Source of the DNA: Dehalococcoidia bacterium
Lineage (GTDB): Bacteria; Chloroflexota; Dehalococcoidia; DSTF01; JALHUB01
Assembly: GCA_030018455.1 (NCBI GenBank)
Contig: JASEFU010000005.1
Location: 1-64,000, forward strand
Length of the DNA stretch: 64,000 nucleotides
Direction: 5' to 3'
The notes under the pieces were generated by a model. The model was given only the letters and a program-made list of their open reading frames with translations. It was not told where the DNA came from and searched no databases. Each line of letters begins with the position of its first letter. Within the stretch, counting starts at the first letter, position 1. Both the position numbers and the translations under genes were made by a program. Below, piece after piece: positions 16,903 to 64,000 of the stretch.

Positions 16903-16914
16903 CAGCCGCGCGAC

Positions 16915-16948
16915 CGGTAGGGGGAGGCGAGACCTCCCCCTGCCGTTT
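16915..16948 (+). terminator. Terminator of the amtB-glnK-glnA operon
   Basis: A 13-base stem (16915-16927 with 16933-16945, one G-U pair), 5-base loop, then TTT. It lies 13 bases after the glnA stop. Confidence 0.85.
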
Positions 16949-16982
16949 CGTCAGTCTTGGCAAAGGAGAGACCGCGCTCCCC

Positions 16983-17011
16983 TTGACTGCTGCGATCACG
17001 CAAAGTAAGCT
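16983..17011 (+). promoter_or_regulatory. Promoter of the second glnA
   Basis: TTGACT (16983-16988), 17 bases, TAAGCT (17006-17011). A small GC hairpin (17021-17038, 7-base stem, 4-base loop) lies in the leader, about 20 bases ahead of the ribosome site. No GlnR-like repeat is seen here, so this copy may be expressed independently of the amtB operon. Confidence 0.65.
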
Positions 17012-17070
17012 TTGAGAAGGGCCGGGCGGTTGCCCGGCTCGCTGATGTAGCAGCCGTTGGAGGGGGCGCC

Positions 17071-47231: not shown

Positions 47232-49397
47232 CTAGCTCGGGCACCATGAATTGAGTATTCCGAACATCGGCACTACGTCCAGTGTGTTCAAAACGCCGTT
47301 ATTGTCCGTGTCTCTGGGGTCGGTGTAGCCTTTCTTGCCGTCGAAATTGCCGTCGATGGTCGCGATGTAAATGCCGGTCCCTGCGGCGTGCGGTTTGATC
47401 GTGGTCGGGTAGCCGGGTACGTTATAGAGGCCGCGGGTCACCTCGATTGTGGCCGGCGGTCCGGCGGAAACGGCATTCACCTGCATGTGCTCGTTGTCGA
47501 TAGCGATTATTTGGCCCACGGCGAGCGAGCCGAGGCCGCTGACCGGGAGCGTGGTCTGTACCGTATCGATAGCTTGGGCCAGCGTTGCGCCGCTGTTTTG
47601 CCCACGGTCATTTGTGTGTAGCCAGACGGACGTGGCGTCGAGGGAAGTGACGCGGCCGTCGAGGTTGGCGTCGGGGCAGAGGATGGTGCGGACAAATCCG
47701 CCCTGCAACGACGCGCTGATGAGCGTGGAGGTGATATCGAGGATTTTCGAGCCGGTAAGAAGCAGGGAGCGCGAGACAAGGTCTTCATTCTTCACCTTGA
47801 ACCAGACGGTGGCTATTCGCCCGGACCCTGTGGGGCCCAACGGATAGGGCTCTCCGGGGTTCCCAGTCGTGGAGCAGCTCGCGACGACGAGGCCGCTGCT
47901 GGGGGTAGGGCCGCTGCACCAGGCAGTGCGGCCGGTGCTCTGGATCCAGGTGAGGTCGAGGGTCAGCTGAAGGTATTCGAGCTGATTGGGATTGAAGGAC
48001 AGGCGCACCTCGAAGCCGCCGAGGCCGTACGGATGGCTGGCGGGGATATTGCGAACCCAAATGTCTGTCTTCATTATGTGATCGCGAACGGGAGCGCCGG
48101 CGCTGTGGCTGTCGGCGACGCCGTTTACCCAGCGGGTAACGACAAGCGTATCCAGGGTACTGTTTTCCTTATAGGGGCAGCCGTCGTTGACCTTGCCGTC
48201 GCCGTCGTCATCGATGGCGTTAGTGCAGGCGGCGTATGTCTCGGGGGTGCCCACCTTAGGGCAGCCGTCGTTGACGCGGCTGTCACCGTCGTCGTCGATG
48301 GCGTTGTTGCATTGGCTGCCTGACTCAGGGCTGTCGGGGGGGCAGCCGTCGTTGACCTTGCCGTCGCCGTCGTCATCGATGGCGTTGGCGCAGGCGGCGC
48401 CGGTCTCCGCCTCAACGTCGTACTGGGGGCAGCCGTCATTGACCTTGGTGTCGCCGTCATCGTCGAGGCTGTTCTGACACTGGAGAATAGGCGGCGGCGG
48501 ATTGCTGGAAAAGTAGATGTCGCGCTCGTATTCGATGTCGACGGTTGGGCAGCCGTCGTTGGCGTAGCCGTCGCCGTCGTCGTCCAGGTCCTGGAGGCTG
48601 GTCTGACCGAGGTCGGTGCAATAGGCGGTACCTTCCGGCGTGGCTACGGCGGGACAACCGTCGTTTATCTTGCCGTCGCCGTCATCGTCGACGTTGTACT
48701 TGCACTGGTCGCCCGTCTCGGGGTCGCCGACGGCGGGGCAGCCGTCATTGACCTTGAGGTCGTCGTCATCGTCCCAGTTGTTGTCGCATTGCGCGCCGGT
48801 CTCCGGAAGCGGAATGCCACCGGGGTCCATTGCGGGGCAGCCGTCGTTCACGTACTCGTCGAGGTCGTCGTCCACGGTGTCGCCCTGCGCGCACTGGCCG
48901 CCGGTCTCCGGGTTGGGGACGCCGTCGTCGATGGTGGGGCAGCCATCGTTTATCTTGCCGTCGCCGTCGTCGTCGATGGCGTTGTCGCACTGGTCGCCCG
49001 TTTCGGGATGGGGGATGCCGTCGTCGATGGTGGGGCAGCCCTCGTTCACGAGCGTGTCGCCATCGTCGTCCACCGCGTTGTCACAGTCGCTAAGGATGGA
49101 GTTGATGATCATGCGTTCCGGAACGGGCCCGTGGTCGCTGACCACCTCTATAGTCCAACCGGTGCGGAGCAGAGAGGCGTTGCTGACCTTCACCTTATTG
49201 TCGTAGTAGGAGCCGGTCATGCTGTTGAGGAGCACGGCGTCACTGTCGTACCAGGCGCCCTGGACGAAGTAAGTTACGGCGGGTTCGAGGCCAATATAAG
49301 TGGAATCGGCGTAAACGGGCGTCTCCATGCCCAGCAGAGCGATGACGACGGCGTAGGCAAGGAGCGGAAGCCTGTACCGGAATGGGACTCGTGCCAT
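47232..49397 (-). CDS. Exported protein with ten Cys-framed calcium-type repeats, cohesin-like domain and split dockerin
   Basis: 721 residues from ATG 49397 (GAGGAGGG upstream). A signal peptide (PLLAYAVVIALLGMETPVYA) and a short beta domain (to about 100) precede ten repeats (about 102-409) of the form C-x-NAIDDDGDGKVNDGCP. Each has an acidic DxDxDG-like loop between two cysteines and is separated from the next by a short Pro/Glu/Thr linker. Then comes a cohesin-like domain (about 445-570, GLGGFEVRLSFNPNQLEYLQL). The end has two dockerin-type loops, DANLDGRVTSLD (about 577) and DTDNNGVLNTLD (about 693), separated by an insertion of roughly 100 residues. No enzyme domain. It likely forms a rigid, calcium-bound, disulfide-stabilised stalk. 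I know of no named family for the repeat array. Confidence 0.8.
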   Translation of the reverse strand: MARVPFRYRLPLLAYAVVIALLGMETPVYADSTYIGLEPAVTYFVQGAWYDSDAVLLNSMTGSYYDNKVKVSNASLLRTGWTIEVVSDHGPVPERMIINSILSDCDNAVDDDGDTLVNEGCPTIDDGIPHPETGDQCDNAIDDDGDGKINDGCPTIDDGVPNPETGGQCAQGDTVDDDLDEYVNDGCPAMDPGGIPLPETGAQCDNNWDDDDDLKVNDGCPAVGDPETGDQCKYNVDDDGDGKINDGCPAVATPEGTAYCTDLGQTSLQDLDDDGDGYANDGCPTVDIEYERDIYFSSNPPPPILQCQNSLDDDGDTKVNDGCPQYDVEAETGAACANAIDDDGDGKVNDGCPPDSPESGSQCNNAIDDDGDSRVNDGCPKVGTPETYAACTNAIDDDGDGKVNDGCPYKENSTLDTLVVTRWVNGVADSHSAGAPVRDHIMKTDIWVRNIPASHPYGLGGFEVRLSFNPNQLEYLQLTLDLTWIQSTGRTAWCSGPTPSSGLVVASCSTTGNPGEPYPLGPTGSGRIATVWFKVKNEDLVSRSLLLTGSKILDITSTLISASLQGGFVRTILCPDANLDGRVTSLDATSVWLHTNDRGQNSGATLAQAIDTVQTTLPVSGLGSLAVGQIIAIDNEHMQVNAVSAGPPATIEVTRGLYNVPGYPTTIKPHAAGTGIYIATIDGNFDGKKGYTDPRDTDNNGVLNTLDVVPMFGILNSWCPS

Positions 49398-49497
49398 CAC
49401 GCGTGCCCTCCTCTTGCGTATGATACTAAACCGAGCCTGCCCTTGGATTCCTAAAATGCCGTCTGCTTTCGAGATTCCTTCGTTGTTCCTTCGAGAA

Positions 49498-50463
49498 TCA
49501 GCCTCGTTTTTGCCGTTGTGGAGGACGGATAGAGTATGCCAGTGAGAGAAGAACGATGCCGCCGGCGGCGAGCAGCCCTCCCGCGAGGGTGGGCCACCAG
49601 GCGGTCTCATACTGCGGCGGGCCCGTGCCCGCACGCGGCGAGCCATCGGCGTTCGTCTGGGCCGTCCCGCCGGATCTCGCGGCGCTGCCGCTGCCTCCCG
49701 TGCGGCCCGCTGCGCCGCTTCCCGAGGGGTCGGCGTCGCTTACGAGGCGGGCCATGGGTGTTTCGCCCGGCTGCGGGGTAAGCCAGGAAAGCGCATCAGG
49801 GTGACGCGTGGGGGTGGCCTGCTGGATTGGCGGCGGCGGTTGCGTTGGTATGGGCGTCGGTTCGTCGGCTCGGGGTGTGGACGTTGGCGTCGTTATGCTC
49901 CCCTCGACAGTTACCGAGCCACTCTGGGCCGTCACATAGAGCCCATTCCCGAATATGTCAGCTATTCCATATACCTCATTGGAGAGACCGAGCCCGAGCA
50001 CCGACTGGCCGGGCGCCCTGGCCGCGAACTGCAAATTGGCCACGACTCCGCTCCCGCTAGCCCCGGGCGTACCCGCGCCCTGGTCGGAGCTGACACAGCC
50101 GAATCGCACCGCATCGAGCGCGGGGTCGCCGGACGATGGGCTATAGTGCAGTGGCCGAGGGCAGTAGAGTTCGCGCCCGGTGCTTCCCAGAAAAGGACCT
50201 GGGCCTACGCCCACAAACCTGACGATGTCGGGGTCGAAGCTGAGGGTGAACTCGAAGGCGCCGAGGTTGGAGACGTTTTCCAGCACAATGTCGACATTGA
50301 ACGTGGGGCCGGCCATTTGCACCGTTTGGCTTGCCGGGGCTACCTTCATGACCGGCGACTGACCGTACGCAGGGCGGCTGCCAGGCGACAACGCTGCTGC
50401 CAGGCAGAACAGGCCGATGCCAGCGGTGCAAAGAAGCAGAGAGAGCGCGTTCCTTCTACTCAT
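49498..50463 (-). CDS. Membrane-anchored single-cohesin surface protein
   Basis: 321 residues: signal peptide (LLLCTAGIGLFCLAAALSPGSRPAYG), one cohesin-like domain (about 37-185; NLGAFEFTLSFDPDIVRFVGVGPGPFLGSTGRELYC, VRFGCVSS), a Pro/Thr/Ser/Gly-rich linker (about 190-285) and a C-terminal membrane helix with a basic end (WWPTLAGGLLAAGGIVLLSLAYSIRPPQRQKRG). The domain is clearly the same as the five domains of the gene at 61225. This is the architecture of an anchoring cohesin receptor. Gap of 100 bases to the next gene; a 250-base gap with a large hairpin separates it from the upstream one. Confidence 0.85.
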   Translation of the reverse strand: MSRRNALSLLLCTAGIGLFCLAAALSPGSRPAYGQSPVMKVAPASQTVQMAGPTFNVDIVLENVSNLGAFEFTLSFDPDIVRFVGVGPGPFLGSTGRELYCPRPLHYSPSSGDPALDAVRFGCVSSDQGAGTPGASGSGVVANLQFAARAPGQSVLGLGLSNEVYGIADIFGNGLYVTAQSGSVTVEGSITTPTSTPRADEPTPIPTQPPPPIQQATPTRHPDALSWLTPQPGETPMARLVSDADPSGSGAAGRTGGSGSAARSGGTAQTNADGSPRAGTGPPQYETAWWPTLAGGLLAAGGIVLLSLAYSIRPPQRQKRG

Positions 50464-50716: not shown

Positions 50717-52684
50717 CTAGGGTAGTCCCTGTGGCGGCGGTACAGGTTTGGCCTGGTCGTCCGGTATCGGCGCCTGGCAGGTGCTGTAGTTGCGGCCAAA
50801 GACGAACTGGAGGTCCTTGATGTCGATGTCAAAGTCGGTGTACTTGGGCTCCAGGTCGAACCACTGGTCGTAGAGCTGCAGACCAAAGAAGCTGCCGTAC
50901 CGGAACGCTATTGCCTGATCGTCCAGGACGTCGACGTCGCAGTCGAGGTCGAGGTCGCCCTCGAGCATCCTGACGGTGATGAAGGCATCGCCGCAGGTCT
51001 GCGTGAGGCCGCCGGGCAGCGTGCCGGGGATCTCCTCGGCCAGCGTGTCGGTGACTTCACAGTTCTCGTCGATGATGTCGGCGATGACGCCGTTCATCTT
51101 CGTCGGGCGGAAGCCGTCGCGGTAGATCAGGTCGTTCGTGTCGGGTACCACAAGGATCGTCTCGATAAGGCCATCACCGTTAGGACCGAGCTGCATGCCG
51201 GGCTCAGCCGGGTCGTCCTTGGTGACGCAGCCGGTGAGTATCCAGTTCTCGGTCATGATGGTCATCGTGCAGTTGGCGATGCGTCCGCCGCTCTCCAGCC
51301 ATGCGTTGTCAGGAGAAGCGATGACATCGACGATCTTGTGGGGGTACTTAATCTGCTCTTCCCAGGCACCCACGCCCTCGGGATCCTCGTCGGAGTCGTT
51401 CGGCGAGTCGATGTCAACAGCGTTGAAGACCCACTTCTCGATGAGCAGGCAGCCCTTGCCCTCCTCGGGGACGACACAGCCGCTCTTCATGATCCAGAGG
51501 TTGGCGGCGGTCTGCACGCCCTCAACGAGAACGTTGGCGTCCTTCTCCATGCGGACACCGGAGCTGACTTCAGCAGTGTCCTCGGAGTCGCTGTTGTCCG
51601 CCGGTGTCGACTCGACCAGCTCGTGCGAGACGACGGCGGTTGTGGTGTGCGTGCCGATTGTCGTGGCGTTGGCCGTGATGTTGCAGACCTTCTGCTCGTC
51701 CACGGCGAGCGCGCCGATGGCGCAGGTCACAACTCCGCCAGCCACTTCGCAGCCGCAGTCGTCGGAGACGTAGACCTTGGCCGGCGGCAGCGTTACCACC
51801 AGGTTGGCGGCAGTCACGTCGTTGGGTCCCTTGTTGGTGACGGTGGCCGTGTAGACGACATCGCTGCCGACTACGACCGGGTCCGGCGCGTCGGTTAGCG
51901 TGACCGACAGGTCTGTCGCCGGAGGCGGCGTCGGCGTCGGCGGAGGCGGTATCTTGTGGTCGATACCGACTTCACACGGCATCGGGACCAGGACCGACGG
52001 GTTGCAGGTGCCCATTTCCGAGGCGTCGGTGTAGCCGAGAACCGCCCAGGAGAGAGTCATCACGTCCGTGGCGGCCGTGCCCAGCGCCTGGAAGTTTATG
52101 ACGGCAATCGTGCCCCAGTCCTCGTTATCGCCGAGACGGAAGGGCCCCGTGAGGCTCGAGCAGGACAGGAAGGCGCGGCCGTTGCCCGGTCCGGTGGCCG
52201 GGTTCTTGTCACCCATGGGGAAAGCGAGACCGCCGGACGAGCAGTCCCAGCCGTCGCCCAGGTCGCGTCCGGCGCCGTTGAACGTGGTTGCGCCTGCGTT
52301 GGCGTCGGGGTTGTCATCGAGGCCGACCCCACTGTCGGCCACCTCAGGCGCCAGGTTCAGCGTGTCGTCGTACAGCACGTCGAACGCTACGGTGCCGATC
52401 GGGAAGCCGATGTACAGCCCGTAGACACAAACGGCGACGCCATAGTTGTCGTTGTATCCGTGGCTGGCCTCCCAGTCGACAGGATCACACGGGCCGTTGC
52501 CGTTGGTGATGTCCATGTCGATTTCCATGTGGAGGTCGGTCAGGGTGTCGCCGTCGTAGTCCCAAATGTGGGCGTACGCGGTGTAGTCGAGACCGCCCTG
52601 CGAGATCCGGAAACCAACAAGCGCCACAGCCAGAATAGCGGTTCCGGCTATCGCTGCCAGAGTTAACAGTAACGAACGCTTCAT
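50717..52684 (-). CDS. Exported protein: type-B cohesin-like domain, DUF11-like repeat, degenerate dockerin
   Basis: 655 residues. Signal peptide (MKRSLLLTLAAIAGTAILAVALVGF). Domain 1 (about 30-245) is homologous to the 46406-47176 protein (DDNPDANAGATTF...DCSSGGLAFPMGDKNP...LSCSSLTGPFRLGDNEDWG). A PPPPTPTPPP linker leads to a DUF11-type domain (about 256-375, DLSVTLTDAPDPVVVGSDVVYTATVTNKGPNDVTAANLVVTLP), then a region of unrecognised fold. The C-terminus has DLDLDCDVDVLD and, 30 residues on, YTDFDIDIKDLQFVFGRNY, a dockerin-like pair whose second loop is degenerate. No anchor helix, so it should be secreted or held through its dockerin. GGTAGGAGG ribosome site. Confidence 0.75.
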   Translation of the reverse strand: MKRSLLLTLAAIAGTAILAVALVGFRISQGGLDYTAYAHIWDYDGDTLTDLHMEIDMDITNGNGPCDPVDWEASHGYNDNYGVAVCVYGLYIGFPIGTVAFDVLYDDTLNLAPEVADSGVGLDDNPDANAGATTFNGAGRDLGDGWDCSSGGLAFPMGDKNPATGPGNGRAFLSCSSLTGPFRLGDNEDWGTIAVINFQALGTAATDVMTLSWAVLGYTDASEMGTCNPSVLVPMPCEVGIDHKIPPPPTPTPPPATDLSVTLTDAPDPVVVGSDVVYTATVTNKGPNDVTAANLVVTLPPAKVYVSDDCGCEVAGGVVTCAIGALAVDEQKVCNITANATTIGTHTTTAVVSHELVESTPADNSDSEDTAEVSSGVRMEKDANVLVEGVQTAANLWIMKSGCVVPEEGKGCLLIEKWVFNAVDIDSPNDSDEDPEGVGAWEEQIKYPHKIVDVIASPDNAWLESGGRIANCTMTIMTENWILTGCVTKDDPAEPGMQLGPNGDGLIETILVVPDTNDLIYRDGFRPTKMNGVIADIIDENCEVTDTLAEEIPGTLPGGLTQTCGDAFITVRMLEGDLDLDCDVDVLDDQAIAFRYGSFFGLQLYDQWFDLEPKYTDFDIDIKDLQFVFGRNYSTCQAPIPDDQAKPVPPPQGLP

Positions 52685-53050: not shown

Positions 53051-56000
53051 CTACGGGAGCGAGCGGTGGAGGTCGGAAGTCAGCGGCAGGCAGGATGCCG
53101 GCGACTTCGTGGCGCTGGAGTTGAGTCCGACGAATGTGCCGTCGAGCGCGGTCAACACGCCGTCCTTGTTGACGTCGAATATGGCGTCGCTTACAGGGTC
53201 GGCGGGTATGAGGTTGTTGACGCGCTGGAGGACGGCTGTCCTGTCGAGGGGGCTGGCGACGCGGTCGCCGTTGACGTCGGCGATCTCGATCCAGTCCTCA
53301 CAGCCTTGCGCGCAGCTCCACGGGGCGGTGCCGCTAACGCACTCGTCGCCGTCGCTGTTCGCTTGAGACGCAAAGGTGTTGTAGCCCTTTATCTCGACTG
53401 TGTCCTCGACCTCTGTCAAGTTGCCGTACGCGCTTGCCGCATTGTCCGCGTCCTTGTCACCGGAGCCGGGAGGCGGAGTGCTGACGCGCGGGCAGAGAAT
53501 CCCGTCGCCATCAGGGTCGAGCTCGGTGTCGTCGTCGATGCCGTCGTACTCGGCGTCCCATATGCCACCGTCGTAGCCGTTGGGCGGGAGGTTCCAGTGG
53601 CAGGCGCGGAAGTAAGCCTGCTGAGCGGGGGAGAGCGTCGCCGGGCACTTGGAACTTGGGTCTGTGGGGATGCTGCCGAGCAGTAGTTCGGCGCCGTCCA
53701 GGCAGCGGTCCCCGTCGGTGTCGGCGTTGTACGGGTCGGTGGGGGCCGGGGCGCTTAGCGGCTCCGCTCCATCTAGAACACGGTCGTTGTCATCGTCCGT
53801 GTCGCAGGCGTCGCCCTGAATGTCGGCTACGGGGTTGCTGGAGACACCACCGGCGAGGAAGGGGCCGTTAGGCCTGCCGCGGCCCTCGTTGTTGGCCTGG
53901 TCAGGGTTGTAGACGAGGGGGCAGTTGTCGTCGCTGTCCGCGGCCTCGCCGGCCTCGTTCAGGTAGATGGAGCCGAGACCGACCTCGTCAACGTCTGTCT
54001 TGCCGTCGCCGTCCGTGTCGGTAGCCTTGCAGCCGGGGTCGGCGGGAGGAGTGTTGTCCTTCTTGCCGTCCAGGTCGTTATCGATGCCGTCGGCGCAGGT
54101 GCCCGCAATCCACGCCTCCGGCTTGCTTGCGGCATTGTAGGGGTTGGAGTCGAGGGCGCGCTCGTCAGCGTCGGAGGCGCCGTCGCCGTCGGAGTCGGTG
54201 GCGTCGCAGCCGGGGTCGGCGGCGTCGGTGCGGCCGTCGGTGTCGTTGTCGATACCGTCGGCGCAGTTGCCGGCAACCCGGGCCTCGGGGACGCTGTTGG
54301 CGGCGCCGCCCGCGGGCGCTGCGGCGTAGTCGTCTTCCGGCTTGTCGAGGAGGCCGTCACCGTCGGTGTCGGGGTTCAACGGGTTGGTGAAGTTGAACAT
54401 CTCCTCGAAGTCGTTAGCCCCGTCGCCGTCGGAGTCGGCTGCGTACGGGTTGGAGCCCCACGCCATCTCGATGCCGTCGAGGAGGCCGTCGCAGTCCATG
54501 TCGGCGGCGGTGTCGTAGACGACGACGTTCGGGACGCCGCTGTAGGGCACAGGCGGGCAGCTAACGCCGTTGGGCGAGTCGTCCAGGTCAACGGGGCGGC
54601 CGGGCTGCGCGAACGCCGGATCGATCAAGCAGTCGTGGTCGTCGTCGGCGCCGGCAGGCATGTCGTCCATGCTCTCGCCGGGGAGCCACGTTCCGGTCTC
54701 GTCCCACGTGCCGGGCTCGATGTAACCGTTGCCGTTGTCGTCTGTTGCCCCGTTGCCGTCGATCCAGTAGCACTGGAGGTCGATTGTGCGCTCGCCGAAG
54801 CGGGTGTCGCCGCGGGAGTCGGGCGGGATCGCAAACGGCATGCGGTCATCGGGGTTGCTGCGGAAGGCGGTCCAGCGCGGGTAGAGACCCGTGTTGTCGT
54901 CGATGCCATCGGGAGACACGGGGCTGGCGCCGCACCAAACCTTGATCACGGCGCGCTGCGCGTTGTCGGCGGGCTTGGACTCGCCGAGAGGCGCGGCCGG
55001 AGCGTCGATGGCCTTGATAACGACAGACTGGAGGCCAGGCACGAGGCAGCCCACGTTCAACTGGGCGTGGACGTCGCTCTGGCCCCAGGGCTCATCGACC
55101 TGGAAGGTGATGCAGGCGTCGCCGGCGGCGCAGGAGGTCGTCGGCACAATGACGGGAGTGCTCCCCTCCCCCTGGTCAACCATAACGCCAGGCGACCACG
55201 CGACTTCGAGGGCGCCGGGCGCGACCTCGGCGACCAGCCACTCGTTCCCGAGCACGTTGCTGGGCTCGTGGTTCGCCTTCAGCTCGTCGATCATCACCGG
55301 TATCGGCGGCCCGAGAACGGTGGCGACGATCGGGTCGGGGTTCGCCTTGATCCAGATGACCTCTTTGTCCACCAGCGTGGCCGCGCCGTCGCCGGAGCAG
55401 ATCACGCGCACGACAAAGGTTGCGGCGTTGTTCTCCGGGTAGGTCTCCACCGTTGGGGCTACCGGCCAGAGAACGTTCTTTATTACAACCAGGCCCTCGG
55501 CAGCTCCCGCGGCGCAGGAAATGCTGAGGTTCTCAGTCGCCGGCGCGCTGGGTCCCGACGGAACGGCAACCGCTTGGTCGAGCACGCTGGTGCCGCTGTC
55601 CACCCAGGTCGCGGTGATGTTGGGCGCCGTAACCTCAGCCTCCCAGTGCTCGATGAAGTTGCCGGCGAGGCCGTTGTTCGCCTTGACCTTTACGACGGTC
55701 ACGGTCTTGGGAGCGACGACAGTGTTGTCGGTCCAGAGACCGACTATGGACGCGTCAGACCCCACGATGACGCCGCTGTTGTCGCCCGCGTTGGGAGGCG
55801 TGCCGTACATGGTGGTCAGCGACACGCTGTTCTGCGGGCTGTCGAGGCAGACGGCGGAGGACGTGCTCATGGCCGTTGCGCCCGCCACGTTAGTGGTGGT
55901 GGCGATGAAGCCGGCCCCGTTAGGCGATATGGGCACGTTGGTGTAGACGGTGTTCAGGGGGGTGGTAATGGGCAGCGGGTTGATGCCGCCCAGCCAGATC

Positions 56001-56509
56001 GTGTCCAGGTCGGCGCGGTGGCGCAGCAGCCAGGAGAAGGGCGGTATCAGCGCCTTCAGGTACTCCTCGCTCGTTCCCTCTACCTTCGTTGTCCGCTCGT
56101 ACCAGGTGTACGGGATGAAGTTCGGCGGTTGGGAGGCGGCCGTCGCTAGGACGTCTGCGTCGGCAGGGCTGCTGGAGTTGCACAGGGCGTCGAGGTCGGC
56201 GGTAACGCTGCCCAGGACGAAGCCGTCTTCCAGCTCCTTGTCCACCTGAAGCTGGAACCCCGGCGGGGTGTATATCCACGGAAGGGTGAGGCGTTCGCCG
56301 CGGATAACTTCTGTGATGGTGTAGTTAGTCAGCGCGCCGGGAGCTACGCCCAGAGCGGTGCTGCTGAGGCCGCCCTTCTCGTTCGGCCCAAAGGGCTGAA
56401 GCGGGTCGGGCATGAGTGCTCGTGTAGGGCTGACGTCGCGGAGTATGCCCGCTAGCGCCAGCGTCATGGCTACGGCAACCGTTGCCGCTAACAGGAGTCT
56501 ACTCTTCAT
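53051..56509 (-). CDS. Large exported dockerin protein with thrombospondin-3-like repeats (copy A)
   Basis: 1152 residues from ATG 56509 (AGGAGGAAACCAG upstream). A signal peptide (LLLAATVAVAMTLALAGI) is followed by about 600 residues of beta-rich, Ig-like modules that end in similar strands (ENNAATFVVRVICSG, ADNAQRAVIKVWCGA). From about 665 a calcium-binding array begins: DSDGDGANDFEEM, DTDGDGLLDKPEDD, DSDGDGASDADE, DTDGDGKTDVDE, DDNCPLVYNPDQANN and DTDGDRCLDGAE, the pattern of thrombospondin type 3 repeats. A dockerin pair closes the protein: DVNGDRVASPLD (about 1077) and DVNKDGVLTALD (about 1111), with D1-N3-D5-x-D12 calcium ligands. No enzyme or anchor. Paralogue of the next gene; identity is highest in the repeats and dockerin. 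Confidence 0.85.
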   Translation of the reverse strand: MKSRLLLAATVAVAMTLALAGILRDVSPTRALMPDPLQPFGPNEKGGLSSTALGVAPGALTNYTITEVIRGERLTLPWIYTPPGFQLQVDKELEDGFVLGSVTADLDALCNSSSPADADVLATAASQPPNFIPYTWYERTTKVEGTSEEYLKALIPPFSWLLRHRADLDTIWLGGINPLPITTPLNTVYTNVPISPNGAGFIATTTNVAGATAMSTSSAVCLDSPQNSVSLTTMYGTPPNAGDNSGVIVGSDASIVGLWTDNTVVAPKTVTVVKVKANNGLAGNFIEHWEAEVTAPNITATWVDSGTSVLDQAVAVPSGPSAPATENLSISCAAGAAEGLVVIKNVLWPVAPTVETYPENNAATFVVRVICSGDGAATLVDKEVIWIKANPDPIVATVLGPPIPVMIDELKANHEPSNVLGNEWLVAEVAPGALEVAWSPGVMVDQGEGSTPVIVPTTSCAAGDACITFQVDEPWGQSDVHAQLNVGCLVPGLQSVVIKAIDAPAAPLGESKPADNAQRAVIKVWCGASPVSPDGIDDNTGLYPRWTAFRSNPDDRMPFAIPPDSRGDTRFGERTIDLQCYWIDGNGATDDNGNGYIEPGTWDETGTWLPGESMDDMPAGADDDHDCLIDPAFAQPGRPVDLDDSPNGVSCPPVPYSGVPNVVVYDTAADMDCDGLLDGIEMAWGSNPYAADSDGDGANDFEEMFNFTNPLNPDTDGDGLLDKPEDDYAAAPAGGAANSVPEARVAGNCADGIDNDTDGRTDAADPGCDATDSDGDGASDADERALDSNPYNAASKPEAWIAGTCADGIDNDLDGKKDNTPPADPGCKATDTDGDGKTDVDEVGLGSIYLNEAGEAADSDDNCPLVYNPDQANNEGRGRPNGPFLAGGVSSNPVADIQGDACDTDDDNDRVLDGAEPLSAPAPTDPYNADTDGDRCLDGAELLLGSIPTDPSSKCPATLSPAQQAYFRACHWNLPPNGYDGGIWDAEYDGIDDDTELDPDGDGILCPRVSTPPPGSGDKDADNAASAYGNLTEVEDTVEIKGYNTFASQANSDGDECVSGTAPWSCAQGCEDWIEIADVNGDRVASPLDRTAVLQRVNNLIPADPVSDAIFDVNKDGVLTALDGTFVGLNSSATKSPASCLPLTSDLHRSLP

Positions 56510-56824
56510 CTGGTTTCCTCCTACCAGGGACTTGGAATGCACGCACGTGCAGGCCTGGTCTCTTGTTCCAGATACGGAGTCCTCAACGATAAGTCCCTCG
56601 CTCTCTCCCTCCTTTCTCAATCAAGTTGGGAGGGGGCTCCCCCCGCGAAAACATGTCCCTCAACTGTGCGTGGGCTGTGATCGGAGGGATGCAAAAAGCG
56701 CCCCCTAACCGAGACCATCCAAAGGGAAATCTCCCTCCTTGTCGGGACTGAAGGGCAATCCCTTGCGCGACTATTCAGTTAGGTCAGGCGGGGAATTAAA
56801 TGAGTGAACCACCAGGTGAGGCCT

Positions 56825-57086: not shown

Positions 57087-60000
57087 CTACTCGAGCGAGC
57101 GGTGGAGGTCGGAAGTCAGCGGCAGGCAGGATGCCGGCGACTTCGTGGCGCTGGAGTTGAGTCCGACGAATGTGCCGTCGAGCGCGGTCAACACGCCGTC
57201 CTTGTTGACGTCGAATATGGCGTCGCTTACAGGGTCGGCGGGTACGAGGTTGTTGACGCGCTGGAGGACGGCTGTCCTGTCGAGGGGGCTGGCGACGCGG
57301 TCGCCGTTAATGTCGGCGATCTCGATCCAGTCCTCGCAGGCCTCACCGTCGCTGTCGGGAACGGCGCCGCCGGTGTAGTAGCCCTTGATCTCCACCGTGT
57401 CCTCGACCTCGGTGTTGCAGGTCGGCGGGCACGACGGACCGGCGTAGGCGCTGGCGCCGTTATCGGAGTCCTTGTCACCGGAGCCGGGAGGCGGAGTGCT
57501 GACGCGCGGGCAGTTGATCCCGTCGCCGTCGGGGTCCATCTCCACGTACTGGTTCCCGCTGTAGCCGGGCGAGAAGTCCGACCACGCGGAGCCGGGCAGG
57601 TTCAGGTGGCAAAGTCGGAACGTTGACTGAGCCGATTCAGACAGCGTAGCCGGGCACTTGGAGCCGCTGTTTGCCGGGTCTGTGCCGAGGATGGACTCGA
57701 CACCGTCGACGCAGCGGTCACCGTCGGTGTCGGCGACGTACGGGTCGGTGCTCACTGTGGCTTCGGCAACGTCGACTATGGCGTCGTTGTCGTCGTCCTG
57801 GTCGCAAGCGTCCCCCTGGGTGTCGGCGGTGGGGTTGCTGGAGACACCACCGGCGAGGAAGGGGCCGTTAGGCCTGCCGCGGCCCTCGTTGTTGGCCTGG
57901 TCGGGGTTGAAGATGAGCGGGCAGTTATCGTCGCTGTCCGCGGCCTCGCCGGCCTCGTTCAGGTAGATGGAGCCGAGACCGACCTCGTCAACGTCTGTCT
58001 TGCCGTCGCCGTCCGTGTCGGTAGCCTTGCAGCCGGGGTCGGCGGGAGGAGCGGCGTCCTTCTTGCCGTCCAGGTCGTTATCGATGCCGTCGGCGCAGGT
58101 GCCCGCAATCCACGCCTCCGGCTTGCTTGCGGCATTGTAGGGGTTGGAATCGAGGGCGCGCTCGTCAGCGTCGGAGGCGCCATCGCTGTCGGAGTCGGTG
58201 GCGTCGCAGCCGGGGTCGGCGGCGTCGGTGCGGCCGTCGGTGTCGTTGTCGATACCGTCGGCGCAGTTGCCGGCAACCCGGGCCTCGGGGACGCTGTTGG
58301 CGGCGCCGCCTAGAGGCGCTGCGGCGTAGTCGTCTTCCGGCTTGTCGAGGAGGCCGTCACCGTCGGTGTCGGGGTTCAGCGGGTTGGAGAACTGGAACAA
58401 CTCGAGGTAGTCGGAAGCGCCGTCGCCGTCGGAGTCGGCGAGGAGCGGGTTGGAGCCCCAGGCGACTTCGAGACCGTCCGGCAGGCCGTCGCAGTCCATG
58501 TCGGCTGCGGTATCGAATTGGATCTTCTGCGCGGACGGCGCGGTGGAGCCCTCATTCAGCTCGATGGCAGGGCAGAGGACTCCGTTCGGTGAGTCGTCCG
58601 CGTCGACCGGGCGGCCGGGCTGGGCGAAAGCGGGATCGGCCAGGCAGTCGCCGTCGTCGTCGATGCCCGCGGGCATGTCGGGATCTGCGCGGCTTTCAGC
58701 GGCGCTGATCCAGCCGTAGCCGGGCGCGTTGGGGTCAGTGTCGAGGTCGACAGCGCCGTCGTCGTCGAACCACGTGCAGCGCCAGGTGTACCAGCGCTCG
58801 ACGTAGCGGACGTCGCTGCGGCTGGCTGTGTCGGCGGCGCTGCCAGGCTTGTACGACATGCGGGCGTCTGCAACGGACTCGTGGGTTATCCACGCCGGGA
58901 AGAGGCCGGTGTTGTCGTCCTTGCCGTCGGCGTCATTCGCGCTGTCCCAGCAGCGGACGGTGATGGTGTCCCACTGGACGTTGTTGCTGGGGTTGGAGTC
59001 GGCGTTGCCCACGGGGACCTCAACGGCCTTTATCGGGACAAGGTAAGTGCCCTCGGTGGCGGGACACGTAATATCGAGCTCAGCCGTGAGGGCGATCTGG
59101 GGGCCGTTGGGCTCGTTGAGACCGACCTTGAGCCCCGCGCAAGCGCTTCCGCCGCCGGCTATGCAGCTAACAGACGTCGGCGTGAGGGGAGCGTTGGTGT
59201 CGGGGTCTGAGCCGTAGACTGCCGCGACCGAGGTGTTGTCGAAGTTGACGGTGATGTCGTAGGTGCCGCCGCCGTCGAGGTCGGGCGCTTCGGCTACCAG
59301 GTAGACATCGCTGGAGGCGCCGTTGGTGTGGCTGTAGTTGCGCAGCAGCGCCGTCATCTTCACGGTCGCCGTGTCGTTCAGCAGGAGCTGGACCTGGTCA
59401 GCAACCGACCTGCCGTCGGTCGTGATGGGCGGGTTCAGGCTTGAGCTTCCGCCGTAGGATACGGGCGCCCCCTCAAGCGTGATGACCTGCTTGTCAACGC
59501 TGCTGGCGGTGGAGCTGCAGTTCACGCGGATGGCAAAGCCGGCGACGTTGCTCTCGAGGTCGCTGTCGAAGGTGCCGGCCTTGGGGTAGGCGACATCCTT
59601 GATGGCGACGATGTAGTCGCCAGTGGCCTGGCAGTCGATGTTCAGCGTGCCGGTGTACTCGATCGCCGTGGCGACGGCGAGGTTATCCTCTGAGAAGCTG
59701 ATCTGGGCGGTGCCGCCGCCGGCGACGGCCGGATCGCTGTCGTCCACCCAGGCGGTGCCGTTCCAGTGCTTCTGGTCGACGCTGCCGCCCCAGGTGGCGG
59801 CCACGCCGGCTGGAGCCTCGACGTGCCAGACGTCCTTGAAGTCGCCTGCCTCGGGTCCGGTGTTGACCACGCGCTTGACCACGTTAACGGTGCTGTCGCC
59901 GGAAACGAGGTTGGGCGAGGCCCACCAGCCGCGCACCTGCTTGTCGGAGCACTCGTAGACGCCGGTGTCACAGGGGGCGGCGCCGTCGCCGCGCAGAGGC

Positions 60001-60704
60001 GGCGTACCGGTCATGCCGACAGGCGTGGTCCATGTGCCCATGGTGTGGGACTTGGCCTCGCCGCCGCCTTGCGAGCAGGTGTTCGTGGGCGGCTCGGGGC
60101 CGCCGCCGGTCCAGACCATGCTTGCGCCCGTGCCCGGGTGCCACGGGAGCTGCATCGTCAGGATCTCCAGCGGCAGTGGGTTGGGGAGCGGATACGCGGT
60201 GGTTTTCGCCAGCCAGATGTGCGTGATGTCGGTCGTGAAGCGGGCCGACATTGGGAAGATGGCTCCCCTGGCCACCAGGTACTCCTTGCCCGCCGCTATG
60301 ATGTCTGTGCTCCCCTCGTCAAACGTGTAGGGGGTGCAGCAGCTGGTGCCGGGCGCCGCCACGGCATCCCACTCGGCAGGGCTGGCGGAGTTGCAGAACA
60401 GGTCGACGCCCGTGAGGAAGTCGCCGAGCGGGTCCCCGTCGTTGACGGCGATGTCGGGGCTTCCCAGCATCCCGTGGCTGTAGGTGGCGTAACTGTCCGT
60501 GCGCTTCCCGAAGGACACCGTCTCCGGGGTGAAGCTGTACGCGTCTGTCCACTGTCCGAGGGCGGTGGTGCTCGTTCCCTGGTCGCCCTCGAAGATGCCT
60601 ACGGGCTGGACGGGGCGGGTAATGCTGCCGCCCGCCGAGGCGCTAAATGCCCATAGGGCTGCTAATAGAATCGCTGCAAGTACGACTAGATAGCTACGTC
60701 TCAT
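57087..60704 (-). CDS. Large exported dockerin protein with thrombospondin-3-like repeats (copy B)
   Basis: 1205 residues from ATG 60704; AAGGAGG stands 9 bases before it (a two-codon ATG GAA TGA frame overlaps the start). Signal peptide (YLVVLAAILLAALWAFSASA). The N-terminal 650 residues resemble copy A in layout (QPVGIFEGDQGTSTTALGQW compares with QPFGPNEKGGLSSTALGVA; strands SNVAGFAIRVNCSS and SNNVQWDTITVRCW) but are diverged. The calcium-repeat array (from about 725) and the dockerin (DVNKDGVLTALD about 1164, preceded by DINGDRVASPLD about 1130) are nearly identical to copy A. No enzyme domain or anchor. Longest-leader gene of the block nearest the divergent scaffoldin. Confidence 0.85.
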   Translation of the reverse strand: MRRSYLVVLAAILLAALWAFSASAGGSITRPVQPVGIFEGDQGTSTTALGQWTDAYSFTPETVSFGKRTDSYATYSHGMLGSPDIAVNDGDPLGDFLTGVDLFCNSASPAEWDAVAAPGTSCCTPYTFDEGSTDIIAAGKEYLVARGAIFPMSARFTTDITHIWLAKTTAYPLPNPLPLEILTMQLPWHPGTGASMVWTGGGPEPPTNTCSQGGGEAKSHTMGTWTTPVGMTGTPPLRGDGAAPCDTGVYECSDKQVRGWWASPNLVSGDSTVNVVKRVVNTGPEAGDFKDVWHVEAPAGVAATWGGSVDQKHWNGTAWVDDSDPAVAGGGTAQISFSEDNLAVATAIEYTGTLNIDCQATGDYIVAIKDVAYPKAGTFDSDLESNVAGFAIRVNCSSTASSVDKQVITLEGAPVSYGGSSSLNPPITTDGRSVADQVQLLLNDTATVKMTALLRNYSHTNGASSDVYLVAEAPDLDGGGTYDITVNFDNTSVAAVYGSDPDTNAPLTPTSVSCIAGGGSACAGLKVGLNEPNGPQIALTAELDITCPATEGTYLVPIKAVEVPVGNADSNPSNNVQWDTITVRCWDSANDADGKDDNTGLFPAWITHESVADARMSYKPGSAADTASRSDVRYVERWYTWRCTWFDDDGAVDLDTDPNAPGYGWISAAESRADPDMPAGIDDDGDCLADPAFAQPGRPVDADDSPNGVLCPAIELNEGSTAPSAQKIQFDTAADMDCDGLPDGLEVAWGSNPLLADSDGDGASDYLELFQFSNPLNPDTDGDGLLDKPEDDYAAAPLGGAANSVPEARVAGNCADGIDNDTDGRTDAADPGCDATDSDSDGASDADERALDSNPYNAASKPEAWIAGTCADGIDNDLDGKKDAAPPADPGCKATDTDGDGKTDVDEVGLGSIYLNEAGEAADSDDNCPLIFNPDQANNEGRGRPNGPFLAGGVSSNPTADTQGDACDQDDDNDAIVDVAEATVSTDPYVADTDGDRCVDGVESILGTDPANSGSKCPATLSESAQSTFRLCHLNLPGSAWSDFSPGYSGNQYVEMDPDGDGINCPRVSTPPPGSGDKDSDNGASAYAGPSCPPTCNTEVEDTVEIKGYYTGGAVPDSDGEACEDWIEIADINGDRVASPLDRTAVLQRVNNLVPADPVSDAIFDVNKDGVLTALDGTFVGLNSSATKSPASCLPLTSDLHRSLE

Positions 60705-61224
60705 TCCATTGTTCCTCCTTGTTTGAACCGTGGACGCTTGTACAAACAGAAAAGCCGACCGCGGGGCCGGCCTCCCTTCCTGATTGCTGAAGCATTCCAG
60801 TGCTTGACTCCGGCGGCCCCGCCATCCGCCGGACATCGCTGTTCCGCAATCGGCTCAACTGTTGTGTTCGAGATTATACAACTACTGTCAACTTTCGTCC
60901 AGCAGGCGCCGGGAGTCTTTTCCGCTGCCCGCGGGGAGCCCGGCAGCCGCAGATCCCGAACGAAAAACGGGCAGAGATTTTAACGTCTTTTCTGACATTA
61001 CATAACAGGCGGCGCCGAACGAAGGGCTATAATTAAGCCGCGAAGTTGCGCCCGGAGAGAGGCGCGCTTCTCTTGAACGCAGCGCTTGCAGCGATTATGG
61101 TAAGTGACAGCGCCCTGCCGCCGGCTGGTAGACAGGCAGCGAGCCTCTCAACGATACCCCCGCCAGCGCGAAGAATGGAGACGGCGGCGGTTTCGGCCGA
61201 CTAACATACTAGGGGTCTCGCTTC
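60705..61224. other. Divergent regulatory region between dockerin gene B and the five-cohesin gene
   Basis: Minus strand: TGGACG (60901-60896), 17 bases, TATAAT (60878-60873), then a leader of about 160 bases containing a hairpin with U-run (60747-60771). Plus strand: TATAAT at 61028-61033 without a clear -35, about 190 bases ahead of the TTG start at 61225. No gene is evident. Confidence 0.5.
60747..60771 (-). promoter_or_regulatory. Hairpin plus U-run in the leader of dockerin gene B
   Basis: On the minus strand GCCGGCC (60771-60765) pairs with GGTCGGC (60760-60754), one G-U pair, 4-base loop, followed by TTTTCTG. It looks like an intrinsic terminator placed between the promoter and the start codon at 60704, as in attenuators or riboswitches. 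Confidence 0.55.
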
Positions 61225-64000
61225 TTGAAAGCGTGGCACTGGTTACTTGTTGTCTTTCTCGCGCTGCTGGCGCCGGGGCTGCTGCTGCTCGCCCAGAAGG
61301 ACAGGGCCTCGGCGCAGCAGGCGGTGATGCGCGTCGACCCGCCGTGGCAGGAAGTGACGCCGGGGAGCCAGTTCGTCGTGCGCATCATGGTCGACGACGT
61401 GTCGAACTTGGGGGCGTACGAATTCATCCTCCAGTATGATCCCGCAATCGTAAGCTATAACATCGTCGCCAACGGGCCCTTCCTCGGAAGCACGGGACGG
61501 AGCGTCTTCTGCCCCTCGCCCATCCTCGACGCGAACACCGTGCGCTTCGGCTGCGTCAGCAGCGACTCGGGGACGCCGGGACCCGACGGTTCGGGGCTGC
61601 TGGCGGAAGTCCTTCTCACCGCCGTCAACGAGGGCGCAAGCCCGCTCGACCTCATATTGGTCAGTCTGGCCGACCCATGGGCGGTGGATATTCCAGCCTA
61701 CCCGCAGAACGGCTCCGTGAGCGTCGTCGCCGGCACGCCGGGGCCGACGCTAACCCCCACGCTCAGCCCGACGCCCACCCTATCGCCCACGCCCACCCTG
61801 TCCCCGACGCCAACGCTCTCGCCCACGCCGGCGCCCCCGGTCACGTGCAACGCCGGCCCCGGCGATACGGTCGTCTGTCTCTACCCCACGGGACAGGTCG
61901 TGGAGAACGGACAGAACTTCAGCGTGAACGTGGTTGTGGAGAACGTGACTAACCTCGGCGCCTATCAGTTAGCGCTCCAGTTCGACCCCCTGATCGTAAG
62001 CTATGTGACCGCCGCCAACGGGCCGTTCCTCGGCAGCACGGGACGCATCGTCGACTGCGACCCGCCGAGCCTTGCCAGCAACTACGTCCGGCTCATCTGC
62101 CGCACCCTGGGCGCCGAGCCCGATGGCCCGTCCGGGACCGGCATACTGTCGACCGTCTCCCTTCGCGGTATCAGGGAGGGGATCGGCATGATGAACCTTG
62201 CCGACATGGTGCTGGCGGACATCGCCGCCCACCCTATTCCCGCTGAGACGATGGGCGCGTCGGTAGTTGTGGTCCCGGCGCCCACGCCCACGCCGACCGC
62301 CACCGTGACACCGGGACCCAGCCCGACGCCGTCGATAACGCCTACGCCCAGCAACACGCCGCCCCCCACGGCTACACCGACGGTGGGGCCGACGCGCACG
62401 CCGACGCCGACGCCCGGGCCGGTGACCGTCAAGATCGATCCGGCTTCCCAGAGGGCGACGGTGGGGAACCCGTTCTCGGTGGACGTGGTGGTGGAGAACG
62501 TGGTCAATCTGGGCGCCTATGAGTTCCGGCTCGGCTTCGACCCCGCGATCGTGAGCTACATGAGCCTGGTCAACGGCCCCTTCCTCGGCAGTAGCGGCCG
62601 CGTCGTGGACTGCTCTCCGCCTATCGTCGAGACCGACTCCGCTGCCATCGTCTGCCGCACGCTGGGCGCGGAACCGGACGGCCCGAGCGGGACGGGCGTG
62701 CTGGCGACGGCAACTTTCCTGCCGGTCGCCACCGGCACAGCCTTCCTGGATATCAGAAACACAATCCTTGCCAGTCCGCGGGCGACGGTAATACCGGCGA
62801 ACGAGCAGGACGGGTCGGTCGCTGTCGATCCGGCGCCTACGCCTACGCCCACGCTCACCTATACCCCCGGCCCTTCGCCCACGCCGACGTCGACACCCTC
62901 GCCCACGGTCACGCGGACGCCTACCAGCACCCCCACCATCGGGCCGACGCCGACACGAACGCCAACGCCGGGCCCCGTCATCGTGAGGGTTGAGCCAGTG
63001 TGGCAGAGAGTGCCGGTGGGGACGCAGTTCACCGTCGATCTTGTGGTGGAGAACGTCATCAATCTGGGCGCGTATGAGTTCACGGTCGCATTCGACCCCA
63101 GCATTCTTCAATACGTTAGCGTGTCCAACGGGCCGTTCCTGGGGAGCAGCGGACGAAACGTCAACTGCCTGCCGCCGGAAAGCGACGGGGCAACGGTGAG
63201 GATGGTGTGCGTGACGTTGGGAGCGGAGCCGAACGGACCCAGCGGCACCGGCGTTCTGGCCACGATCAGGTTCCTTCCCATAGCCTTGGGAACGGGAATG
63301 ATCGATTTGAGGGAGGTGATCCTCACCGATCCCATGGCGAACGAGATCCCCGCCGGCCTTCAGGACGGTTCTGTGACCACCGAGCCGGCACACACTCCCA
63401 CACCGACCTCGCCTCCGACGAGCACTTATACGCCGGGGCCGAGCCCGACGCCGACCGTCACAGCGACGCCCGGCGGCCCCACGCTTACGCCCACCCCAAC
63501 GCCGACGCGCATCCCCGGACAGGCGCTGGTGAAGATCGACCCGGCGTCGCAGCAAGCGGCGCCCGGCGAGTACTTCGACGTGAACGTGCGCGTGGAGAAC
63601 GTCAACAACCTGGGCGCGTACGAGTTCACGCTCCAGTTTGATCCGCAGGTGATCAGCTACGTAACGGTAGCGAACGGAACATTCCTCGGCAGCAGCGGGA
63701 GATCGGTGTTCTGTCCTCCGCCCATCATCGACGTCGGCACCGTCCGCTTCGGCTGCGTCAGCTCCGACGGCTCGACCCCCGGCCCGAGCGGTTCGGGGCA
63801 GCTTGCCCAGATCGTCTTTCAGGCGGCGACGGAAGGGACGAGCCCGCTCAATTTCGTGATGGTGGCGCTGGCCGATCCCTGGGGCAACGATATTGGAGCC
63901 GGCGCAAGCGGAGGTTCGGTGACGGTGTCTTCCGGCTCGGTGCTGGCTGAGCCCGCCTTCCACATAGGGGTGCTGATGGCCGGAATCGGGCTTGCCGGCA
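61225..64000 (+). CDS. Multi-cohesin scaffoldin-like surface protein, runs off the window edge
   Basis: 925 codons are visible and the frame is still open at 64000. An in-frame TAG at 61210-61212 forces the start to TTG 61225, with AGGGG at 61211-61215. Signal peptide: KAWHWLLVVFLALLAPGLLLLAQKDRASA. Five cohesin-like domains follow at about residues 34-170, 207-352, 400-536, 585-722 and 768-905. Each has the core NLGAYEFTLQFDPxIVSY, then NGPFLGSSGR and, later, GxLA-type strands; each is joined to the next by a Thr/Pro/Ser linker of 35-50 residues (TPTLSPTPTLSPTP and similar). The last visible residues (FHIGVLMAGIGLAG) look like the start of a C-terminal membrane helix, as in the 49498-50463 protein. 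Five receptor modules on one chain are the hallmark of a scaffoldin. Confidence 0.88.
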   Translation, partial: MKAWHWLLVVFLALLAPGLLLLAQKDRASAQQAVMRVDPPWQEVTPGSQFVVRIMVDDVSNLGAYEFILQYDPAIVSYNIVANGPFLGSTGRSVFCPSPILDANTVRFGCVSSDSGTPGPDGSGLLAEVLLTAVNEGASPLDLILVSLADPWAVDIPAYPQNGSVSVVAGTPGPTLTPTLSPTPTLSPTPTLSPTPTLSPTPAPPVTCNAGPGDTVVCLYPTGQVVENGQNFSVNVVVENVTNLGAYQLALQFDPLIVSYVTAANGPFLGSTGRIVDCDPPSLASNYVRLICRTLGAEPDGPSGTGILSTVSLRGIREGIGMMNLADMVLADIAAHPIPAETMGASVVVVPAPTPTPTATVTPGPSPTPSITPTPSNTPPPTATPTVGPTRTPTPTPGPVTVKIDPASQRATVGNPFSVDVVVENVVNLGAYEFRLGFDPAIVSYMSLVNGPFLGSSGRVVDCSPPIVETDSAAIVCRTLGAEPDGPSGTGVLATATFLPVATGTAFLDIRNTILASPRATVIPANEQDGSVAVDPAPTPTPTLTYTPGPSPTPTSTPSPTVTRTPTSTPTIGPTPTRTPTPGPVIVRVEPVWQRVPVGTQFTVDLVVENVINLGAYEFTVAFDPSILQYVSVSNGPFLGSSGRNVNCLPPESDGATVRMVCVTLGAEPNGPSGTGVLATIRFLPIALGTGMIDLREVILTDPMANEIPAGLQDGSVTTEPAHTPTPTSPPTSTYTPGPSPTPTVTATPGGPTLTPTPTPTRIPGQALVKIDPASQQAAPGEYFDVNVRVENVNNLGAYEFTLQFDPQVISYVTVANGTFLGSSGRSVFCPPPIIDVGTVRFGCVSSDGSTPGPSGSGQLAQIVFQAATEGTSPLNFVMVALADPWGNDIGAGASGGSVTVSSGSVLAEPAFHIGVLMAGIGLAG

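Follow-up and report, generated by a model that had tools for sequence, protein, structure and literature searches.

The gene at the window edge and its neighbourhood

The window analysed here, the whole stretch of 64,000 nucleotides, opens a contig of 171,543 bases (positions 1-64000) from a Dehalococcoidia genome of 2.38 Mb (97.7% complete). Its last gene is an open plus-strand frame which starts from a TTG codon and reaches the window edge, as the initial annotation had described it, and the supposition that this gene runs over the edge proved right. Because the contig extends past 64000, the gene could be read through to a stop in the same contig at position 64137, that is 137 bases beyond the window, and it encodes 970 amino acids. 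We call its product the scaffold. It had been left to the continuation to reveal whether a membrane helix and more cohesins follow, and a frame break or an unrelated catalytic part had been named as findings that would speak against the proposed gene; reading on to 64137 in the scaffold frame revealed the C-terminal membrane helix, no further cohesin, no frame break and no catalytic part. Since the stop is reached without interruption and more contig sequence lies behind it, a truncation or frame-break artefact was rejected.

On inspection, the TTG codon is preceded by an AGGGG run at a distance of about 10 nt and followed by a hydrophobic, signal-peptide-like N-terminus, and it appears to be a reasonable start. 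At the other end, the hydropathy scan found a hydrophobic helix, HIGVLMAGIGLAGSVGLLMRR, followed by a basic tail, and attachment of the scaffold to the cell surface by these two elements is predicted. The coordinates of the scaffold, its modules and the neighbouring genes are collected in Table 1.

Table 1. Features of the scaffold locus (window positions unless marked as contig positions; TM, transmembrane)
Feature	Position	Strand	Evidence
Divergent single cohesin, C-terminal TM helix	46406-47224	-	Pfam 21.4 bits (cut-off 24.1); profile
Asp-rich DDDGD..NDGCP repeats, cohesin at 47691-48050, two dockerin-like half motifs (by eye)	47232-49646	-	cohesin E=1.7e-17
Single-cohesin membrane protein, cohesin at 49906-50352, C-terminal TM helix	49498-50463	-	E=7.6e-42
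Divergent N-terminal cohesin-like domain (by eye), DUF11, divergent cohesin, type B dockerin at 50783-50962	50717-52684	-	E=1.2e-31
Secreted TSP3-repeat protein, C-terminal type-I-like dockerin at 53105-53284	53051-56620	-	profile E=7e-20
Secreted TSP3-repeat protein, C-terminal type-I-like dockerin at 57141-57320	57087-60836	-	profile E=7e-19
Scaffoldin-like gene: signal peptide, five cohesins, Thr/Pro linkers, C-terminal TM helix (predicted)	61225-64000	+	Pfam, ORF, contig read-through
Signal-peptide-like hydrophobic N-terminus (MKAWHWLLVVFLALLAPGLLLLAQ...)	61225-61323	+	sequence, hydropathy scan
Cohesin 1, lineage 1/5	61324-61725	+	related-cohesin profile E=3.1e-53
Cohesin 2, own lineage, common with module 2 of G001	61870-62271	+	profile E=2.2e-50
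Cohesin 3, lineage 3/4	62425-62826	+	profile E=4.9e-51
Cohesin 4, lineage 3/4	62980-63378	+	profile E=4.3e-56
Cohesin 5, lineage 1/5	63529-63927	+	profile E=5.2e-54; AlphaFold2 pLDDT 97.7, best PDB match 2xdh
C-terminal TM helix, first part	63955-64000, on to about contig 64023	+	hydropathy
Divergent cohesin, type B dockerin, Thr/Pro linker, TM	contig 64122-65726		16-base overlap with scaffold gene
Single-cohesin membrane protein	contig 65822-66538		
ECF sigma factor	contig 66830-67423		
DUF5667 protein	contig 67425-68942		

The scaffold stands in a dense cluster of related genes: the cohesin profile gave 12 modules or module-like matches for the whole genome (with the weak gene at 46-47 kb taken once), and ten of them lie within about 20 kb around it. 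The idea of four dockerin proteins next door held for three of the minus-strand genes, namely the two TSP3-repeat proteins, whose type-I-like dockerins were found by profile, and the DUF11 protein with its divergent dockerin; the fourth, the gene with Asp-rich repeats, gave no dockerin-profile match and carries split half motifs seen by eye.

The five modules are cohesins by family and, for module 5, by predicted fold

Pfam assigned the scaffold to the cohesin family (PF00963) with 147.1 bits against a cut-off of 24.1 (E = 4.8e-43) over five separate stretches, and a profile of related cohesins recovered the same number of modules at E = 2e-50 to 4e-56, all of them separated by Thr/Pro linkers, so that the five linked cohesin domains proposed at the outset were recovered in full. 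We modelled module 5 with AlphaFold2 from an alignment with 31 related modules, and the mean pLDDT of the model is given in Table 1. When this model was compared with the PDB by Foldseek, the best 50 matches listed were all cohesins, the first being a non-cellulosomal cohesin of Archaeoglobus fulgidus (E=1.3e-13, TM 0.75). The cohesin sequence profile likewise led to cohesins in the PDB, with 3l8q as the best match (9.2e-12). Judged by family match and by the predicted fold of module 5, the five modules are true cohesins, and as such they would be expected to bind dockerins.

An FLGS-x-GR motif and a pair of cysteines, which in module 5 are C64 and C78, are invariant in 15 of 15 aligned modules, and the cysteines are still invariant in a wider set of 32 cohesin sequences. 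C64 and C78 may form a disulfide in module 5.

The modules had been described as five near-repeat domains. Their similarity is real, with pairwise identities of 45-60%, but the notion of five equal copies is too simple, because the modules belong to three lineages, {1,5}, {2} and {3,4}, each of which is common to the sister genus G001. In a maximum-likelihood tree of 59 cohesin modules, scaffold module 2 groups with module 2 of G001 (support 100/93), modules 3 and 4 with its module 3 (97/94), and modules 1 and 5 with its modules 1 and 4 (97/94); a similar position-by-position grouping was seen within each of the families f2 and f3. Since the grouping follows position across genera, the modules are old and have been maintained separately, and recent duplication or homogenisation was rejected.

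Gene order is retained in the sister genus

The order scaffold, single-cohesin protein, ECF sigma factor, DUF5667 protein is retained in G001, where the scaffold and the cohesin-dockerin part form one ORF of 1344 aa. The two parts are fused in G011, G013 and G009 as well. In G005-G007 the genes are separate (in G006 the four-cohesin gene and a gene for dockerin, cohesin and TM helix meet in an ATGA overlap, L067:4215-4240), and as this is the same arrangement as in our contig, the split between the scaffold gene and the cohesin-dockerin gene is probably real and a sequencing error an improbable cause.

Both genera of the family have the ECF sigma and DUF5667 genes behind the scaffold, which would fit a surface sensor, an operon which signals to the adjacent sigma pair in a role like the RsgI-type biomass sensing of cellulosome producers. 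We consider this highly unlikely, as the scaffold has a short cytoplasmic tail in which no anti-sigma domain was recognised, and the sigma pair was not seen, at the threshold used and on contigs many of which are short, beside the scaffolds of other families. The pair may simply regulate the operon.

Ordinary dockerins and a putative divergent class are encoded in the genome

Profile searches of this genome gave ten matches of ordinary dockerins and three of a putative divergent class, which we call type B. The ordinary dockerins (PF00404, type I, with two calcium-type repeats) match solved PDB dockerins at E=4.7e-14 by profile. Type B dockerins, with the consensus EGDxNxDCxVNVxDxQ...DxDIDIKDLQFVYGR, fall below the Pfam cut-off, and their matches to our first dockerin HMM are circular, because one type B sequence was among its seeds; their kinship with the ordinary class was taken from a separate profile-profile comparison (probability 94%, E=9.6e-8). 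Against the PDB, the type B profile gave weak matches (E 0.03-0.8), which are mostly dockerins, and two of them are the scaffold-borne dockerin of CipA (2b59_B and 3kcp_A). In an AlphaFold2 model of a cohesin-type B dockerin module, the cohesin part folds as a cohesin, while the dockerin part is mostly at pLDDT below 40. Each of the three type B copies in this genome lies directly behind a divergent cohesin. In family f3, the ordinary dockerins show the consensus GDVNCDGxVNSIDAALxLQ....

Most cohesin proteins end in a predicted membrane helix and most dockerins lie at the C-terminus

To describe topology, we counted ORFs uncut by contig ends, from loci chosen by domain matches, and predicted TM helices by a simple hydropathy scan. 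A C-terminal TM helix was found in 24 of 34 ORFs with cohesins only, and in 1 of 88 with dockerins only; in 82 of the latter 88 proteins the dockerin lies at most 40 residues from the C-terminus. Such a distribution is the pattern expected if the cohesin proteins were membrane receptors and the dockerin proteins their soluble secreted cargo. Several proteins carry a cohesin joined directly to a dockerin. Against the membrane-anchor reading stand the four-cohesin chains of G006 and G007, in which hydropathy and profiles found neither a TM helix nor a dockerin, and the same probably holds for the chain of G005, the ORF of which runs off its contig.

The cargo was surveyed by the Pfam domains of 70 dockerin proteins in the order. 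These include arylsulfotransferase-like (5 members), glucose/sorbosone dehydrogenase-like (3), purple acid phosphatase N-terminal (3) and NHL (3) domains, further FG-GAP, Kelch and RCC1 domains, S8 and C1 peptidases, an amidohydrolase, beta-lactamase-type serine hydrolases, solute-binding proteins of ABC transporters (SBP_bac_5 and Peripla_BP_6) and adhesion folds of the SpaA and SdrD types. In this genome, Pfam recognised arylsulfotransferase-like, NHL, FG-GAP and TSP3 proteins, and a protein with subtilase motifs was found by inspection. The cargo domains share no common theme, which we count against the reading that we prefer below. Dockerin-bearing Peripla_BP_6 and SBP_bac_5 proteins can be seen, for example, at L103:15009-16940 and other loci.

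A cohesin chain with dockerin partners consists of the same parts as a cellulosome, and one dockerin protein of the order bears an NPCBM domain, hence it might be supposed that the scaffold belongs to a true cellulosome, or to another polysaccharide-degrading complex, with genes for the enzymes at other places in the genome. We rejected this as improbable in the extreme. Neither a glycoside hydrolase nor a polysaccharide lyase is among the Pfam families listed for the 70 dockerin proteins of the order, a list which covers all but up to seven weaker families, nor was one found by Pfam and inspection on those dockerin proteins that were recognised in this genome; on the scaffold itself, only cohesins are above the Pfam cut-off, and neither a catalytic nor a carbohydrate-binding module was detected.

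Cohesins and dockerins occur together across relatives

In the order to which the window belongs, 16 of 18 genomes have both cohesins and dockerins, and profile searches of the other two, both of family f4, found neither. Among 148 genomes of the class, cohesins were found in 31 and dockerins in 30, and both in 23, against 6.3 expected. Outside the order, 15 genomes have both domains against 3.7 expected (Fisher p=1.2e-9, a value which takes the genomes as independent, though they are related by phylogeny and are not).

The co-occurrence bears on the idea that the cohesins might be beta-sandwich repeats with a structural or adhesive role and no binding of dockerins, as in a surface adhesin or a stalk with a fold derived from cohesins. 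The cohesin fold occurs in proteins outside scaffold systems (2jh2), and 8 cohesin-only and 7 dockerin-only genomes among the 148 of the class would agree with this idea. Yet the association with dockerins is strong, and perfect within the order, the topologies of the cohesin and dockerin proteins are complementary, and several proteins are direct cohesin-dockerin fusions; we thus regard an adhesin or a stalk as rather unlikely.

Families f1, f2 and f3 of the order have frames with at least three cohesins, and the largest, of 2025 aa, combines eight standard cohesins with a divergent cohesin and a dockerin. The six f3 genomes have 4-23 cohesin matches each, and five of them have 28-65 dockerin matches per genome (e.g. 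G013, L102-L118; G011; G015), the sixth (G010) having 4. Such dockerin numbers are comparable to those of cellulosome producers.

A profile search of the genome contigs with a tight cohesin alignment gave ten loci. 

A gene group recurs at L102, L108, L120, L129, L137 and L140: a large dockerin protein stands together with a single-cohesin membrane protein, and in several cases with a small cohesin-dockerin protein lacking a TM helix. The recurrence of these groups suggests that they are cognate sets.

The scaffold is probably a membrane-anchored, non-cellulosomal scaffoldin

The features of a scaffoldin that could be assessed here, a multi-cohesin, non-catalytic and (by its N-terminus) secreted chain and dockerin proteins in the same genome, are all present as far as sequence can tell. 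Five cohesins, neither a catalytic nor a carbohydrate-binding module, a C-terminal anchor and dockerin genes alongside thus uphold the scaffoldin-like character assigned to this gene at first sight. We find it quite likely that the scaffold is a non-cellulosomal scaffoldin anchored in the membrane, which would bind secreted dockerin proteins and display them on the cell.

The proposed mechanism is as follows. The chain would be exported, and its C-terminal helix would keep it in the cytoplasmic membrane, as the sequence supports, so that the five cohesins could project from the cell on flexible Thr/Pro linkers. Proteins of the secreted cargo, each with its dockerin at the C-terminus, would fold around calcium and clip onto the cohesins. 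Here, the captured cargo may comprise the subtilase, the arylsulfotransferase-like protein, the propeller-type NHL and FG-GAP proteins and the TSP3-repeat proteins. The cohesin-dockerin membrane protein may, like the membrane proteins with a single cohesin, add docking points to this network or act as an adaptor in it. Binding, its dependence on calcium and a benefit to the cell are what we infer from the established chemistry of cohesins and dockerins; the pairing itself, including which module would pair with which, is proposed in the same sense. One chain could, by the same analogy, hold several partners, as had been suggested from the number of its modules. Whether membrane-anchored cohesin chains are, in most families of the order, a general means of surface display for secreted proteins, both enzymes and ABC solute-binding proteins, unrelated to polysaccharide degradation, is a question on which we are evenly divided.

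Comparison with known systems

Cohesin-dockerin pairs are treated mainly as parts of cellulosomes. The classical scaffoldins (CipA of C. thermocellum with its X-dockerin, ScaA and ScaB of A. cellulolyticus) share with the present scaffold the cohesin fold, the multi-cohesin chain and, if the putative type B dockerin is one, a scaffold-borne dockerin of another class than the dockerins of the enzymes. In contrast to them, no CBM was detected on the present scaffold and no glycoside hydrolase among the families listed for the dockerin proteins, and a predicted membrane helix takes the place of SLH domains or a sortase; the scaffold dockerin stands behind a divergent cohesin, where CipA has an X module, and the cohesins bear the invariant cysteine pair and the FLGS-x-GR motif.

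Comparable systems already exist in ANME archaea and in Cloacimonadota. In ANME-1, -2a and -2c archaea, a system described from genomes only includes scaffoldin-like proteins that combine a dockerin with as many as five cohesins and have no role in cellulose degradation (PMC9012536), and as in the order studied here, dockerins are found there on substrate-binding proteins of ABC transporters (PMC9012536). ANME-2c archaea have dockerins linked to the S-layer (PMC9012536), whereas the anchors described here are predicted transmembrane helices. Unlike in ANME, the present chain ends in a helix of its own and the dockerin sits on the divergent cohesin, and the f3 relatives reach 65 dockerin matches and scaffolds with eight standard cohesins and a divergent one. 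In Ca. Stygibacter (Cloacimonadota), a large, non-catalytic, surface-attached protein with tandem cohesins and a dockerin-bearing S8 peptidase resemble what we describe here (PMC8542988), but that scaffold has CBM2/CBM3 and a C-terminal attachment domain, and the dockerin-bearing proteins include GH18 and GH57 enzymes (PMC8542988). The "planctosome", proposed from genomes of freshwater Planctomycetes (Nemodlikiaceae), is likewise a non-cellulosomal cohesin-dockerin network with TSP repeats and peptidases (PMC6461901); it differs in that its anchor and its adaptor have one cohesin each, and there is no multi-cohesin chain (PMC6461901). Single-cohesin proteins with a C-terminal TM helix were proposed to be cell-surface receptors in Lachnoclostridium sp. 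MSJ-17 and others (PMC11557425), MSJ-17 being, in contrast to our organism, a member of Bacillota (PMC11557425). As that survey (PMC11557425) required dockerin-fused glycoside hydrolases, systems like the present one were outside its scope. Six genomes of Anaerolineae were reported to have neither cohesin nor dockerin (PMC4877987), and in the open-licence literature we found no prior report of such a system in Dehalococcoidia or Chloroflexota.

A complete set of parts, with a multi-cohesin chain, an adaptor, single receptors and soluble plugs, appears to extend across an uncultured order of Chloroflexota, and as no cellulase was seen among the plugs listed, the role of non-cellulosomal cohesins and dockerins becomes directly testable. 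Such a system would change the view of how the secreted proteins of these organisms stay with the cell, and work on protein assembly would gain new candidate cohesin-dockerin pairs, marked by two conserved cysteines.

Further features of the cluster

About 390 bases (window 60837-61224) lie between the scaffold gene and the first dockerin gene, and both are transcribed outwards, in opposite directions, from this common region. Downstream of the scaffold, the cluster contains a pair of paralogous secreted proteins with a VLMGCDGL motif (contig 70357-71184 and 77741-78592; L003:9357-10184 and 16741-17592), for neither of which Pfam gave a match. Cys-flanked, Asp-rich tandem repeats (CDNAIDDDGDGKINDGCP) are found both in the window gene at 47232-49646 and at contig 69586-70338 (L003:8586-9338); they belong to no recognised family and probably bind calcium.
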